From assembly GCA_026005055.1 (NCBI GenBank), contig BPKI01000001.1, positions 62,001 to 126,000 on the forward strand: a stretch of 64,000 nucleotides of DNA. Reading direction: 5' to 3'. Every line of letters begins with the position of its first letter. Within the stretch, counting starts at the first letter, position 1. The stretch is from Lysobacterales bacterium (GTDB taxonomy: Bacteria; Pseudomonadota; Gammaproteobacteria; Xanthomonadales; BPKI01). Shown one piece after another: positions 19,699 to 49,801 of the stretch. The notes below the pieces were generated by a model. It ran no database searches. It was not told the DNA's origin and saw only the letters and a list, made by a program, of their open reading frames with translations. The position numbers were made by a program, and so were the translations under genes.

Positions 19699-21462
19699 AT
19701 GCTCATCGGACTGTCGGTCGTCTCGCTGCTGTTCGCGCTTGCCTGGGTCGACGAGGGCGGTCATCAGCCGCCGGAAGGCAAAGCCTCGCACGACGCCCTC
19801 CAGCGTCAACTCGACGCCCGCGCGAGGGCGACTTTCGCCCGCACCGTGCCTTTCGGCTCGCCTGAGGCGCGGAAAGAAACCGTACTCCCCGAGGTCGTGG
19901 CGAAAGCCGGCAGCATCGGCGGCCGGGACGGCGATCTCGATCAGCAGATCCGCGTCTTCACCGTCACGAATGAACCCGGCATCTCCCGTTACATCGCCGA
20001 CTATGGCGGCCGTCCGCCAGTGGCCACCGCGTATGCCGTCGGCCAGACCAGCGGCCTTCGCATCGTGCTCGCGGGTCAGGCCGGACTGCCCTCAGGCTCG
20101 TTCCCGACTCGAATCGGCATCATCCAGTTCCGCAATGACGGCACGATCGATCCCGATTTCTCGGTCAGCGACATCGGCCGCCAATACGTCGACATTTCCA
20201 ATCCGCAGCTTCACCTTGTGAGCGGGCTGGCCGTGCTCGACGAGACCATCGGCACGAGTTTCCTGCATCGCATCTACCTCCTCGCCGAGGACCGCAGCAA
20301 TCCGAGCCAGTACAACTTCGCGCTGCTCTGCTTCCGCCGTCCCCTCGACGATCCGAGCGCGGCGTTCACCGTCTGCCCCGGCTTCGAGCCCGCGGGAGTT
20401 CGCTATTACAACGCGAACCTCGCCTCGAGCTGCCCCAGCAATCACAGCCGTCCGGGAGCGATCGCCCTCGGCATCAATGCCGCCAACCTGCCGGTCATCT
20501 ATCTCGGCGGCAGCGTGCAGCGGACTTTCAACGCCTGCGGGGACTACGACATGGCCGTGCTCCAGGTCAACATCGCCGGCGACCCGCAGACCGGCTTCGG
20601 CCCATTCGGCACCGGCTGGGCGACCGCTTTCGTGAGCCACAGCGCGGGCAATCCGCCCTACGTCGGCGTCGCGCGCGCGCTCTTCGGCTTGCCGGCGGGG
20701 ACCGGGGTCTTCTTCGGCGGATCGGTGCGCAATGGGGCCGGCAGTGAGCACGCCATCCTCGGGCGATTCAACGGTTCGGGAAGTCTGGTCAGCAGTTTCT
20801 GCGCCGCAAGCGACACGAGCTGCGACTCGCCGAGCAGCTATCGCAACGGCTTCCGCGGCTTCTCAAGCCTGCCGAACGGCGAAGTCGCCGCGGTCGCTCC
20901 GCTTTCCTTCGCATCCGGCGGACGGATCGCACTGGTCCGAGCGCGAACGACTTCATCCGACGCGGCGCGCGCACAACTGATCAACGCGAACGGCGGCTGC
21001 TCCACGCCCCTCCCCTGCAACGAGGTCGTGCTCGCACCCGCTTTCGGCGACGGACCGCTCTATCCGGCGGCCATCCTACCGCGCCTCGATACGAACGGCA
21101 TCATCGATCCTCGTTTCTTCGTCCTGGTGGGCTGGGGCATGGTCAGCGACCCCTTGAGTCCCACCGACGGCAAGGCTTTCGCGATCGCCCTGCGCGACAA
21201 CGAGACGGGAAGTCTCGTACTGGATGCGGGATTCGCCAGCACCCCCGGTGCCGGTCACCGCAATGTGATCACCTGGCCCAACAACTCAGGGCCGAGCGCG
21301 GTGCGCGACACCCGAATCCACGCCGCCCATCGCGACCGGCAGGGGCGCATCCTCCTCGCGGGCAGCAATCGCGCCACCGAGGACTCGGGCGGCGAGTACG
21401 ACATGGGCTTCGCCCGACTCCAAGGTGGCCGCGTCTTCTCCGACGGTTTCGAATCGCCCTGA
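19699..21462 (+). CDS. Secreted propeller-like protein with C-terminal DGFE tag
   Basis: A 587-residue protein with an N-terminal hydrophobic signal ([16 protein letters not shown]). Repeating segments resemble degenerate delta-60-type propeller repeats ([62 protein letters not shown]). Paired cysteines ([29 protein letters not shown]) suit an oxidised, extracytoplasmic location. It ends in [10 protein letters not shown], a tag shared with the secreted operon at 43628. The ATG at 19699 begins the signal; the track start at 19333 lies antisense in ttcA. Function unknown. A strong terminator follows at 21480. Confidence 0.7.
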
Positions 21463-43627: not shown

Positions 43628-45613
43628 ATGAGTCGGTTTCGCCCCTGGCGGGCGCTCGGCGCGGCAGCGACGCTGCTCGTCCCGCCTTCGCTTTCGGCGC
43701 AGCCGATCTTCGCCGATGGCTTCGAACAGCGGGTGCCACCCGCGGCCATGGCTTGGCATCAACACGCCGCCGATGCCGCACGGCGAAGCTACGTGGCCTC
43801 AGCGGTGCCCCTCCCTTGGCGCTGGAAATGGGCATGGAACGGACCCACGGAAAGCGGCGGCATCGTCCCCGGCAAGAGCTCGCTTCCTCGCAACGTCCAG
43901 CCGATCACCGGGAATGGACGGGTGTACGCGGCCGCCGGCCACCGGGGGCTCTTTGCCCTCTCGGCAGCCAGCGGCGAAGTGCTGTGGAACGCGAGCTTCG
44001 CCGGTCCTGCCCTTTCCACGCCCGCCTACCAACCCGGCGCCGATGCGCTTTTCGTCGCGAGCGGAGAGGGCCGCTTGCACCGGCTCGACGCGGCGACAGG
44101 GACGAGCCTGCTCAGCGTCCCCCTGGCCGGCCCGGCGCGCACCCCGCCCCTCCTCCTTCCCGACCGGGTCCTGGTGGCCGCGGGCACAGTGCTTCATGCC
44201 TTTCGCGCCAGCGATCTCACGCCGCTTTGGAGCCACGATGCCGGTCGCCTGATCGAAACCGCCCCGGCGGCGAGCGCCGATGGACGGGTGATCTTCGCCA
44301 CCGAGGATCTCGAGGTGCGCGCGGTCGATGTGAACAGCGGGCTTGAGCTCTGGCGCCGCAAACCCTCGCCGAGGCAACCCGCCCTCCACCCCGAAGGCTT
44401 GCCTTTCACCGCCGCGGAAGCGAGCTACCGCTTCGCCTGGCCGGTGATCGCGGATGCCCAGGGTCTCGTGTTGATCAAGCTCAGGCTCGATTGGCAAACG
44501 ATGTGGGACTACGGCGCGCAGACCAGCAATGCCTCGATCCGCGCGTTCTTCGCGGCCAATCCCGGGCAGCAGGCCCTTCACGCGCTTCGCTTGAGCGATG
44601 GGCAAACCGCCTTCATCGCCAACATCGGTCACGGCGGCTACGGCAACGGCGACTACATGCCGATGGGGCCGCAGCCGGTGATCCGGACCCTCGCGGATGG
44701 CACGCAGATCGCCTACGCGATCGTCCGCGGCCGTCACGATCTCGATCCGCGCTGGGATTCCTTCTTCGGCGAGCTCGTCCTCGATACGAGCCTGCCCGGA
44801 TTTCAGCCCGGGGACATCCGCTGGATCCGCTACCCCGGGATCGTGGACTTCCTGCTGACCGACGAGCAACCGAATCTCTCCATGGCCGGCGATCAGCTCT
44901 TCGGCGGGCATTGGATGGCGGGCTATGCCATCCGCCCCCTCGATCGAAGCCCCGCCTACGGCAGCTACGCCAACCCGATCCCCGCCGAACCGTTGCCTCA
45001 CATCGTCACCTCGAGCAACTCGGGAAGCTTCAGCCCCACGCACTGGTCGCCAGGACCGCTCGCGCAGGATGGGGATGCTCGGCTCTTCCCCTTCGGTTTC
45101 TACATCTACTGGAACCAGGGCCCGGTCTATGACGCCTACTGGAGCGAATACGCCGTCTGGGTGGTCTCCGAGGGGCTGGTGCTCTTCCGAAGCTGCGATG
45201 GGGCGATCGTCGCGCTCGAGCATGGATCGCCCACCGCCGCCCCCGCGGCGAAGGTTGCCGGCGCGTCGCCACCGCCGCCGCTGCCCGGGCCCGCTTGGGT
45301 GCGCGCCGAGGAGGCCCGGGCTCATGCCGGTCGGCGGACGAGCGTCGAGGGCCGTATCGCCCGAGTGTTCAACAACGGCAAGGCGATCCAGCTCTATTTC
45401 GCCTGGCCGCACAAAGGCCATTTCAAAGTGCTGATCGAGCGCCCCGACTGGCCGGCCTTCGGGCCGGGTCTCGGTTGGACGCGGGGCTACGATCGGGCAG
45501 GGCTCTATGCGCGCGGTCAGCGCGTTCGCGTCCATGGCCTGATCAGCTGGTACCAGGGCGATCCGGTCATCCGCATCGAGCGCCCCGAGGCGATCGAGGT
45601 GCTCGAGCGATGA
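43628..45613 (+). CDS. Secreted PQQ-type beta-propeller protein with N-terminal DGFE tag and OB-fold-like C-terminus
   Basis: A 661-residue exported protein. The signal peptide (RALGAAATLLVPPSLSA) is followed at once by QPIFADGFEQ, the tag that ends two other secreted proteins in the window. Residues about 55-250 hold PQQ-like propeller strands (NGRVYAAAGHRGLFALSAASGEVLW, DALFVASGEGRLHRLDAATG). Further propeller-like blades follow to about 540. A proline linker (SPPPPLPGPAW) leads to a C-terminal OB-fold-like domain (RTSVEGRIARVFNNGKAIQLYF). No PQQ-binding triad is obvious. It overlaps the next gene by 4 nt, so the two form an operon. Confidence 0.7.
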   Translation: MSRFRPWRALGAAATLLVPPSLSAQPIFADGFEQRVPPAAMAWHQHAADAARRSYVASAVPLPWRWKWAWNGPTESGGIVPGKSSLPRNVQPITGNGRVYAAAGHRGLFALSAASGEVLWNASFAGPALSTPAYQPGADALFVASGEGRLHRLDAATGTSLLSVPLAGPARTPPLLLPDRVLVAAGTVLHAFRASDLTPLWSHDAGRLIETAPAASADGRVIFATEDLEVRAVDVNSGLELWRRKPSPRQPALHPEGLPFTAAEASYRFAWPVIADAQGLVLIKLRLDWQTMWDYGAQTSNASIRAFFAANPGQQALHALRLSDGQTAFIANIGHGGYGNGDYMPMGPQPVIRTLADGTQIAYAIVRGRHDLDPRWDSFFGELVLDTSLPGFQPGDIRWIRYPGIVDFLLTDEQPNLSMAGDQLFGGHWMAGYAIRPLDRSPAYGSYANPIPAEPLPHIVTSSNSGSFSPTHWSPGPLAQDGDARLFPFGFYIYWNQGPVYDAYWSEYAVWVVSEGLVLFRSCDGAIVALEHGSPTAAPAAKVAGASPPPPLPGPAWVRAEEARAHAGRRTSVEGRIARVFNNGKAIQLYFAWPHKGHFKVLIERPDWPAFGPGLGWTRGYDRAGLYARGQRVRVHGLISWYQGDPVIRIERPEAIEVLER

Positions 45614-48600
45614 AGCGAAAAGCGCTCGTGGCCGCCCTCGCGCTCGCCGCCGCCCAGGCGAGCGGGCAAAACCTGCTCGAGAACGGCGGCTTCGAGCAGC
45701 TTTCCGGCAATCAAGCGAGCGGCTGGCCGGGGCTCACCACCGCCTATCTCAGCAGCACCATCGTGCGAAGCGGGCAGCGCGCGGTGGCGATCGAGCGCGA
45801 TCAAGCCGCCGATGGCCCTTCCTGGTCGCAGGGCTGGCTCCCCACCTCGGCCGGCGCTCGCTACAAGCTCATCGGCTATGTGCGCTGCGATGCCTTCGAG
45901 GGGCAGGGCTGGGGCCACGCCCTGCTTGGCATCGTCCACGCCGACTGGAGCGAGGAAAGGATCGCCCCGGAACGGCTCACCGCCTCTTGTGGCGATGGCA
46001 CGTGGCACGGATTCGCGTTGCGCTTCAACGCCAAACCCGGGGGTACGCTCGTGCGCTTTGGCGTCTTCGGGCCCAAAGAACGGGTGCGGCTTTACTTCGA
46101 CGACCTCGCCTTGGTACCGGCTTCCGCGCCGAACCAGCCGCCCTCGGGTCAGGCCAGCCTCAGCCCGCTCTCGGGCAGCGCGCCGCTGACCGTGAGCTTC
46201 GCCGCAAGCCTCGAGGATCGCGATGGCGCGGTCGCCGAGATCCGCTGGGACATGGGCGATGGGCGGCTTCATGAGCAGGCGTCGGGCAGCCACCTCTACC
46301 GCTTCGCGGGGCGTTATCCGGTGCGCCTGATCGCGCTCGATGATGAAGGCGGACGCTTCGAGCGAAGCTTCGAGGTGGTGGTCCATGATCCCGCCGCCCC
46401 GCGCCTGAGCGTGCTCGCCCCTGAGGATGGCAGCAGCACGGCGGCAGAGACGATCACGCTGAGCGGCAATGCCTTGCCTGCGATCCTCGATCCGGCACCG
46501 CTTGCGACCCTGGTCTGGGACAACCTCGACCTCGAGCCCGCGACCGCAGGCGCGATCCCGGCGAGCCCGAACTTCAGCCTGACGGTGCCGCTCAAGCCCG
46601 GCCGCAACCGGCTGCTTCTCACTTTGAGCGACCAGGCGGGGCGGATCGCCACGCAAAGGCTCACCGTTCATCGCACCCTGAGCGCGCCGGTGATCCGCGA
46701 ACTGTGGACCGCTCCTCGTGAGGTGGAGCGCTTCGCCACCTGGCGCGCCACCTTTCTGCTCGATACGGTCGCCGAGCAGCCTTTCTTCGATTACGACCCC
46801 GAAGCGCCCTCGCCCGAAGACGGCGTTGCCGGCGTCCGCGCCGAAGCCGAGATCACCCTCCCCAACGGTGTTCTGCTGCGACAGCCCGCCTTTCAGCGCG
46901 CCGACCTCATCGAGCGCGAGGGCCTTTGGCACGACCTGGGCAGCCGCCGTTTCGAGCTTCGCTACACGCCGCGCCTGGTCGGCACCCATGCCATCCGGCT
47001 CAAAATCAGGGATGCCTCGGGCGAAAGCACCCTCGATCTTGGCACCATCGAGGTCAGCGAGAGCAGCCGTCCCGGCTTCATCGGCCGCGCCAGCGACTCG
47101 CGCTACTTCGCCCGCGACTCCGGGCAGGCTTACATCCCCATCGGGCCGGCGCTCGATCCCCGGCATCATGAGAACCACGGTGCGCTCACATGGCGTCGGC
47201 CGTGGCTCGGCGGCTTTGGCGCCTTTTCCACCAACTGGTCGCGCTGGATCTCGAGCGCCGAGCGCCACGGCAACGAGGGCTTCATGGCCGCCCTCGAGTT
47301 CCGCGAGCGGCTACCGTGCCGCGAGCTTTCCTTCCCGCTCTTTTGCTCCGGAAGCTGTGGCGCGAGCGATGAAGACGGGGAAGGCTGGCGGCTGTGGCAG
47401 GGCTTCCTGCTCGAAGGGCAGACCGGTTTCCGCGTGGTGAGCGGGCGGCGTTACCGCCTGCTCATACGCCTCAAGCTCGATCCGCTCACCCCGCGAGCCG
47501 CCGCGCCCGCGGGCCTTGCCGTGCGCTTGCACGACTGGCCGCCTCCTGGCCAGAGCTGGCGGAGCTACCTCGAGAGCCTCGGGCCCGCGCATACCCTGCT
47601 CGCCCCCCTTTCCGGCCCGCGGCCCTGGCACACGGTGCTCGTCGATTTCACGGCCGCCATCACCGCCGAGGATCTCTCCTTGCACCTGCATGGCGTCGCC
47701 TCGGGGCGGGCTTGGCTCGATACGATTTCCCTGCGCGAGATCGACGCGCAGGGCCGCTATCTCAGCGGCGAGCTGCTCCGCAACCCCCGCGCCGATCACC
47801 ACCGCTACGTTGACGAGAAGGGTGCGCGCGAGATCGAGCATCTGCTCGAACGGGCCGAGGCGCAGCGCGTGGCGCTGCAGATGGTGGTGCAGGACAAGAA
47901 CGACTGGATCCCGCGCCATCTGAGCGATCTTGGGGTATTCTCGCCGCGCGGCGGCGGTTACTACCAAGGCGAGGGCACGCGCTGGCGTTGGCTCGCGCGC
48001 CAGTGGTGGCGGTACTTGGCTGCGCGCTACGGACCCTCGACCGCGATCTTCGCCTTCGAGCTCAACAACGAGGGCTCGCCGGATGATCGCGCCCATTGGC
48101 AAGCGGCGGAAGACTTCGCCCGCTTCTTCGCGCAGCAGGCGCATCCGCATCTGGCGAGCACCTCGTTCTGGTGCTGCTGGCGCCCGGCCTTCTGGGGTGA
48201 TCATCAGAACTTCCCGCACCTCGGCTACGCCGACCTTCACGAGTACAGCAACGACGGAGAGCTTGGGAGTCAGCGTGAGGCGCTGGAGGCGGATTTCGCC
48301 GCCATGCACCTCTTCCGGGTGGCGAAAGTGCGGCAAAGCCCGGTGGGGCGGCCGGTGATCCGCGCCGAATCCGGGCTCGAGCCGGGCACCAGCCATTTCG
48401 AGCTGCTCGCCAACCAGCCCAATCCCGGCATCTGGTTCCACAATCTGCTCTGGGCGCAGCTCGATGGCTCAGGCGTCTTCGATCCCGGGTATTGGTGGCA
48501 GGAGCATTTCGAGGCGGTCGATCGCTATCTGCTTGGAAGCGCTCAGGCCGGGGTTTCGCGCGCCTTGCTCGCCGCGCCTTATGCCGCCTTCGTCGCCAGC

Positions 48601-48987
48601 CTCGGCCGCGAGGCCGGCGGCTTCGTCGATCTCGACGCCGAAGTGCAAGGCGAACTGAGGGTCATCGGCCAACGCCACCTGGGCCGCGGCGAAGCGCATC
48701 TTTGGGTGCAGAACCCGCACTCGACGTGGAAACGCTGGATGCTTCAACCCGCGACGGTGACGCCGACGCAGGGCAGCGTGCGCATCGGCCTTGGCCAGGC
48801 CGGGCGCTATCGCATCGAGCGCTTCGACACCTGGCAGGGCGGAGTGATCGAAAGCTTCGTGCAAGATAGCGACGCCCAGGGGCGCATCCTGCTCACGGTG
48901 AGCGGGCTTCTCCGCGATACCGCCTTCCGCATCATCCGGCTCGGCGGCGCCGAGGGCATCTTCGCCGACGGTTTCGAGGCGCCGTGA
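45610..48987 (+). CDS. Secreted 1125-residue glycoside-hydrolase-like protein with PKD and DUF5060 domains and C-terminal DGFE tag
   Basis: A 1125-residue exoprotein. The signal KALVAALALAAAQASG is followed by NLLENGGFEQ, a carbohydrate-binding (CBM4_9-like) opening. A PKD domain is at about 176-265 (RWDMGDG), a DUF5060-like immunoglobulin domain at about 365-480, then a TIM-barrel-like region. FAFELNNEGSP (acid/base E821) and VIRAESGLEPG (nucleophile E920) are about 100 residues apart, as in clan GH-A hydrolases. It ends IFADGFEAP. The ATG at 45610 overlaps the propeller gene's stop. The substrate is unknown, probably a polysaccharide. Confidence 0.7.
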   Translation: MKRKALVAALALAAAQASGQNLLENGGFEQLSGNQASGWPGLTTAYLSSTIVRSGQRAVAIERDQAADGPSWSQGWLPTSAGARYKLIGYVRCDAFEGQGWGHALLGIVHADWSEERIAPERLTASCGDGTWHGFALRFNAKPGGTLVRFGVFGPKERVRLYFDDLALVPASAPNQPPSGQASLSPLSGSAPLTVSFAASLEDRDGAVAEIRWDMGDGRLHEQASGSHLYRFAGRYPVRLIALDDEGGRFERSFEVVVHDPAAPRLSVLAPEDGSSTAAETITLSGNALPAILDPAPLATLVWDNLDLEPATAGAIPASPNFSLTVPLKPGRNRLLLTLSDQAGRIATQRLTVHRTLSAPVIRELWTAPREVERFATWRATFLLDTVAEQPFFDYDPEAPSPEDGVAGVRAEAEITLPNGVLLRQPAFQRADLIEREGLWHDLGSRRFELRYTPRLVGTHAIRLKIRDASGESTLDLGTIEVSESSRPGFIGRASDSRYFARDSGQAYIPIGPALDPRHHENHGALTWRRPWLGGFGAFSTNWSRWISSAERHGNEGFMAALEFRERLPCRELSFPLFCSGSCGASDEDGEGWRLWQGFLLEGQTGFRVVSGRRYRLLIRLKLDPLTPRAAAPAGLAVRLHDWPPPGQSWRSYLESLGPAHTLLAPLSGPRPWHTVLVDFTAAITAEDLSLHLHGVASGRAWLDTISLREIDAQGRYLSGELLRNPRADHHRYVDEKGAREIEHLLERAEAQRVALQMVVQDKNDWIPRHLSDLGVFSPRGGGYYQGEGTRWRWLARQWWRYLAARYGPSTAIFAFELNNEGSPDDRAHWQAAEDFARFFAQQAHPHLASTSFWCCWRPAFWGDHQNFPHLGYADLHEYSNDGELGSQREALEADFAAMHLFRVAKVRQSPVGRPVIRAESGLEPGTSHFELLANQPNPGIWFHNLLWAQLDGSGVFDPGYWWQEHFEAVDRYLLGSAQAGVSRALLAAPYAAFVASLGREAGGFVDLDAEVQGELRVIGQRHLGRGEAHLWVQNPHSTWKRWMLQPATVTPTQGSVRIGLGQAGRYRIERFDTWQGGVIESFVQDSDAQGRILLTVSGLLRDTAFRIIRLGGAEGIFADGFEAP

Positions 48988-49610: not shown

Positions 49611-49801
49611 AGGCGTCCTCTGCGGTGTGCGACAGCGCGCTCAACAGTGTGCCTTGACCCTATCGACGACCTCGGGAAAGCGAGATCGCGTCCGGTGTGC
49701 AGGTCCGCTGCGAGCGGAAAGCCTGAAGGACACGTGAGCTTGCCCACCTGATCCCAGGGATCAAGGTCGTTTTGCGTGCACCGGCATCGCGGAGGGTGCC
49801 A
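49611..49801 (+). ncRNA. ssrS: 6S RNA
   Basis: About 190 nt between zapA and the 5-formyl-THF cyclo-ligase gene, the usual locus. The ends pair into a long closing stem: GGCGTCCTCTGCGGTGT (from 49612) with GGCATCGCGGAGGGTGCC (to 49800), 17 contiguous pairs including wobbles. Near the 3' end ACCTGATCCCAGGGATCAAGGT forms the expected small hairpin. The interior has the open-bubble character of 6S. It would bind sigma-70 RNA polymerase and repress transcription in stationary phase. Ends are accurate to a few bases. Confidence 0.88.

Follow-up and report, generated by a model that had tools for sequence, protein, structure and literature searches.

A DUF5060-linked predicted glycosidase and propeller operon carries a candidate docking address of secreted proteins across a bacterial order

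Analysis of a two-gene operon in a stretch of 64,000 nucleotides from a Lysobacterales bacterium (the window, analysed as a whole) uncovered a short peptide tag, built around the motif DGFE, that is carried by both of its products and by many other secreted proteins. We read the operon, with moderate confidence, as encoding a DUF5060-linked glycosidase and a propeller protein, and the tag as a docking address for secreted proteins that is used in one bacterial order, presumably Xanthomonadales/Lysobacterales. The tag likely acts in localisation, probably by specifying the destination of its carriers, in an export or surface-retention role.

The operon consists of two open reading frames on the + strand, 43628-45613 and 45610-48987, which overlap by 4 nt (ATGA). 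The products of both start with a clear Sec signal peptide, as assigned by hydropathy with no trained predictor, and the operon would yield two Sec-exported proteins. ORF and sequence inspection bear out the two-gene secreted operon, with its overlap and both signal peptides, that had been described in an earlier note on this DNA. Annotation of the neighbours also agrees with that note in finding no adjoining sugar transporter or regulator: the surrounding genes are housekeeping genes and encode an aldehyde dehydrogenase, folE, a lipocalin, zapA, a 6S RNA, 5-formyl-THF cyclo-ligase and an EVE protein. The 6S RNA (Rfam RF00013, 102.6 bits) lies just downstream of the operon, at window positions 49614-49799 (+), between zapA and the cyclo-ligase gene. 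The features of the operon are as follows.

43628..45613, + strand: gene 1, secreted PQQ/BamB-like beta-propeller, 661 aa (ORF; PQQ_2, E 7.4e-21; designed and BamB propellers in the PDB, E 5e-21)
43628..43699, + strand: gene 1 signal peptide MSRFRPWRALGAAATLLVPPSLSA (from the sequence; putative cleavage site)
43706..43726, + strand: gene 1 N-terminal tag IFADGFE, residues 27-33, directly behind the signal peptide, as in L084, L090, L125 and L132 (sequence and motif search)
43829..44374, + strand: gene 1 propeller repeats (PQQ_2 match)
45269..45610, + strand: gene 1 C-terminal tail, called OB-fold-like in the earlier note (no family or PDB match)
45610..48987, + strand: gene 2, secreted multidomain glycosidase-like protein, 1125 aa (ORF; domain and PDB matches)
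45610..45666, + strand: gene 2 signal peptide (from the sequence; putative cleavage site)
45667..46122, + strand: gene 2 opening domain with a putative CBM4_9-like start, NLLENGGFE (sequence; weak NCBIfam Mep72 match, E 0.004)
46162..46368, + strand: gene 2 PKD domain (PKD_4, E 6.5e-12)
46399..46674, + strand: gene 2 Glucodextranase-B-like Ig domain (Glucodextran_B; match under the Pfam cut-off)
46936..47148, + strand: gene 2 end of the DUF5060-like domain and start of the barrel (alignment to residues 85-157 of 9gmj)
48070..48072, + strand: gene 2 E821, predicted acid/base, in ELNNE821G (aligned with the Glu that is Gln in 9gpc; invariant in L038)
48367..48369, + strand: gene 2 E920, predicted nucleophile, in IRAE920SG (aligned with GEFGLD of 9gmj; invariant in L038)
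48958..48978, + strand: gene 2 C-terminal tag IFADGFE, residues 1117-1123, followed by AP and the stop codon (sequence and motif search)

The product of gene 1 is a PQQ/BamB-like beta-propeller, as proposed earlier; it matches the PQQ_2 family at E 7e-21 and propellers in the PDB at E 5e-21. Propeller repeats are common to this protein and to BamB and other PQQ-repeat propellers, but it differs from BamB in scoring far under the curated NCBIfam equivalog cut-off (49.6 vs 285.2 bits), in having no lipobox, and in its long unassigned C-terminal half. The OB-fold-like tail found no counterpart, as family-model and PDB searches with the last ~110 residues gave no match. Structure prediction from the single sequence yielded an unusable model (mean pLDDT 30.1).

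The C-terminal half of the gene 2 product is homologous to PDB 9gmj, a DUF5060-domain protein, at E 3.5e-10 with the single sequence and at E 1.7e-15, in three stretches, with a two-sequence profile. This homology covers the junction of the DUF5060 domain with the barrel as well as the barrel itself, and supports the DUF5060-like domain and barrel first read from the sequence. When the 775-aa catalytic half was scanned at E up to 10, the Pfam DUF5060 model did not appear among the matches, and the DUF5060 assignment rests on 9gmj. The barrel likewise rests on homology, since too few sequences were available for structure prediction to succeed: the AlphaFold model of the catalytic half, built from a two-sequence alignment, was unusable (mean pLDDT 35.5), and no fold search was run on it. 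The PKD domain was recovered as expected (E 6.5e-12); the carbohydrate-binding opening was not confirmed, with one weak NCBIfam match.

The two candidate glutamates of the earlier note, E821 and E920, stand exactly at the positions it gave, fall on the acid/base and probable nucleophile sites of 9gmj, and are both invariant in the homologue on contig L038. In 9gpc and its sister entries the glutamate at the E821 site is replaced by glutamine, which suggests that the depositors mutated it as a catalytic residue. The GEFGLD site aligned with E920 is the nucleophile position expected for clan GH-A. Judged by sequence, the protein is likely a retaining glycosidase; it would be a DUF5060-linked member of clan GH-A, with E821 as acid/base and E920 as nucleophile, together with carbohydrate-binding and PKD/Ig modules. 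It has the end of the DUF5060 domain, the barrel motifs and both catalytic-site glutamates in common with 9gmj/9gpc, but adds CBM-like, PKD and Ig modules in front and a long insertion in the barrel. Literature searches on DUF5060, 9gmj and DGFE returned nothing useful.

Relatives of this protein are scarce. Searched against 100 relatives in the order, full-length gene 2 matched essentially PKD/Ig-type regions alone, and its catalytic half had no relative among them. In the class sample (n=369) the catalytic half matched one other genome, on the divergent MAG contig L038, and no relatives were found in plasmids or viral contigs. The L038 contig (1-6436), labelled Gammaproteobacteria, carries several cohesin- or dockerin-like genes with single membrane anchors adjoining the homologue, and is probably a contaminant of another lineage. 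The operon contributes a rare, divergent DUF5060-linked predicted glycosidase.

The motif that the two proteins share is found far beyond the operon. In the whole genome of this bacterium (2.44 Mb), FxDGFE gives 19 matches and the reversed control pattern gives none, so the motif is far above chance. When read in frame, nearly all matches lie within 4 residues of a stop codon and most of their carriers have a signal peptide; the exceptions are gene 1, with its tag behind the signal peptide, and two chance matches in other contexts. The carriers include two S8 subtilases, an M28 aminopeptidase, an ExeM/NucH-type nuclease, a SpoIID/LytB protein, a GSDH, sortilin/BNR propellers and DUF5122/delta-60 proteins. 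Most tag carriers have a signal peptide by hydropathy. The window itself holds a further example.

21436..21453, + strand: tag FSDGFE, followed by SP and the stop codon, in a 587-aa protein (ORF 19699-21462, weak delta-60 repeat match; motif search and in-frame reading)

Homologous tagged proteins are the one thing that recurs beside tagged genes; no other recurrent neighbour was found. The tag also closes a cytochrome-peroxidase-like ORF at L048 (G000:C1:1704100-1711800), in whose frame no signal peptide is seen, possibly because of a frameshift or a more upstream start.

A sample of 94 matches was drawn from four genomes, each of a different family and selected in part for their high counts. 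The consensus is [DE]x[ILV]FxDGFE, located 0-13 residues before the stop codon in 82 of the 94. Two positions that were free in the search are constrained in these 82 tails: 81 have I, L or V at position -1 (background 20%) and 62 have D or E at position -3 (background 10%), with no conservation further upstream. The codons, on the other hand, vary freely: every codon for Gly (four) and for Phe, Asp and Glu (two each) is in use, and 56 of the 82 18-mers are distinct. The tag is conserved as a peptide, not as DNA, and since codons vary while the residues at -1 and -3 stay, it is under selection at the peptide level.

BLAST comparison of the carriers without their tags gives 48 clusters, of which 36 hold a single protein. 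Homologues of one S8 protease from other families terminate with the tag itself, with drifted forms of it (FANGFE, FQNGFE, FSNSFE, FHDGFD and FMHGFE), or just before it, and the tag behaves in this respect as a detachable module. Further variants take the forms FxNGFE, FxDSFE and FxDDFE. In about five proteins (gene 1, L084, L090, L125 and L132) the tag stands directly behind the signal peptide, and all four of these that are complete have no C-terminal tag. Two of them, L084 and L090, are 451-aa secreted orthologues from two families that are 57% identical, and both keep the N-terminal tag. At L153 (G070:C2:353350-366540) the tag occurs twice in tandem at the C-terminus, IFKDGFEGDLIFKDGFEGMTP.

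The tails bear neither a transmembrane helix nor a basic cluster: hydropathy reaches 1.6 over a 19-mer in just 3 of the 82 (median 0.74), and K or R after the tag is absent from 66 and occurs two or more times in 2. NCBIfam r20 and Pfam models gave no match to ten 35-residue tails at E up to 10, in searches whose HMMER filters are insensitive to so short a motif. The tag is unmentioned in the open-access literature searched, beyond which papers might mention it, and is apparently undescribed.

The expansion of the tag is confined to one bacterial order. The order was represented by 101 genomes, and in 51 of them the motif matches 8-77 times, while the reversed-pattern control gives 0-3; outside the order, in roughly 700 Pseudomonadota genomes of the class and phylum, the maximum is 7 matches and most genomes have 0-3. 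Within the order the distribution is patchy, with several genera of the same families nearly without the tag. These counts are conservative, as the strict pattern undercounts: genome G063 has 0 matches, yet its S8 protease carries FMHGFE.

Placed at the very C-terminus of the mature chain in most carriers and at its N-terminus in some, the tag probably forms a linear address label on dozens of unrelated secreted proteins. Once Sec export is complete, it would be recognised as a docking peptide and direct its carrier onto the outer membrane or through it; the type II secretion system is the most plausible route and the leading candidate machinery. Two features expected of type II cargo are present: most carriers have Sec signal peptides, and the genome encodes a type II system. 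The type II secretin GspD was found in 99 of the 101 genomes of the order, including many without the tag (the copy in this genome is at G000:C1:926431-928221), and is so nearly universal in the order that finding it in all tag-rich genomes carries no information. No secretin scored above the cut-off in G018 (family f8) and G001, which have 4 motif matches, none of them a terminal tag, and 1 match, respectively; these two genomes with neither GspD nor tag are consistent with a link to type II secretion, at a level that is not significant. Across the order, type II secretin matches seem to form two groups by score and length, with both kinds in many genomes. A link of the tag to the higher-scoring kind was considered and dropped, as the tag-rich genomes G004, G050, G064 and G071 seem to be without it.

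An alternative that we consider unlikely makes the tag a signal for retention or processing that a dedicated sortase-like enzyme would cut, with covalent fixing at the surface as for GlyGly-CTERM, MYXO-CTERM and type IX cargo. The tag resembles such signals in its many unrelated carriers, its C-terminal position, the signal peptides and the lineage-specific expansion, the same features that pointed the way to sortase, exosortase and rhombosortase (PMC3237569). In Wenzhouxiangella, moreover, no proteolytic activity was found in the medium, and the authors inferred proteases anchored in the outer membrane, perhaps via type II secretion (PMC7691419). What speaks against this alternative is that the tails are without a transmembrane helix (3/82 at hydropathy 1.6 or more) or basic cluster (2/82), and that the conserved N-terminal tag of some proteins clashes with C-terminal cleavage and transfer. 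Occurrence at either end, and the absence of both membrane helix and basic cluster, make non-covalent binding of the tag more likely than its cleavage and transfer.

The tag might instead be an element of structure or stability with no part in sorting, such as a beta-hairpin that caps chain ends or blocks tail-specific proteases. The sequence [ILV]F-x-DG-F could fold as a tight hairpin, and the tag often stands at chain ends after linkers. However, we think this improbable: the 48 clusters of carriers are unrelated to one another, tagless homologues do well in related genomes, and neither restriction to one order nor loss genus by genus would be expected of a cap.

Equally doubtful is the proposal of the earlier note that the operon encodes a dedicated extracellular complex of two proteins acting on one polysaccharide. 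The ATGA overlap, implying translational coupling, and the co-secretion of both products fit such a complex. The note held that a pair conserved together nowhere would count against it, and within the genomes searched the pair is conserved nowhere; on the L038 contig, which carries the one relative of the gene 2 catalytic half, no propeller is visible. DGFE is indeed common to both proteins, as had been noted, but it is no special mark of the pair, since the tag is spread genome- and order-wide and is a general tag rather than a sign of interaction. Finally, a spreading DNA repeat fused to gene ends would account for near-identical short sequences at many genes, but is so improbable, given free synonymous variation (56/82 distinct 18-mers) and conserved amino acids that include the unfixed -1 and -3 positions, that we reject it.

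Read as a docking address, the tag bears on an old open question, namely what signal directs proteins to type II secretion or Gram-negative surface display. A nine-residue tag that can stand at either end, occurs on dozens of proteins per genome and is easily transplanted would make this question directly testable. It would also offer a simple in-silico listing of the exoproteome for a large bacterial order.

Type IX secretion uses a folded domain as its signal. The tag is like the type IX C-terminal domain in marking, at the C-terminus, a varied set of cargo proteins that bear Sec signal peptides, but differs in showing no conservation upstream of position -3. To our knowledge, no cognate enzyme is known for the DGFE tag. 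Comparable enzymes of other bacteria are exported through type II secretion, and some of them bear a GlyGly-CTERM tag; in Vibrio, such Sec-exported enzymes are type II cargo with GlyGly-CTERM surface tags (PMC13393428, PMC3237569), while in Myxococcus they carry MYXO-CTERM (PMC11980579), and for proteins of both kinds type II secretion takes part in delivery to the surface (PMC13393428, PMC11980579). Like the signals of the GlyGly-CTERM/rhombosortase, LPXTG, PEP-CTERM and MYXO-CTERM systems, the DGFE tag is a short C-terminal sequence on unrelated secreted proteins, with many carriers per genome and a lineage-restricted distribution, and the cargo of GlyGly-CTERM-type systems overlaps its carriers in serine proteases and DNases. 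Of the features of a tripartite sorting signal, it shows the C-terminal signature on many unrelated signal-peptide proteins and lacks the helix and the basic cluster. Unlike GlyGly-CTERM-type signals, with their transmembrane helix and basic tail, it consists of about 9 residues and may also occupy the mature N-terminus.
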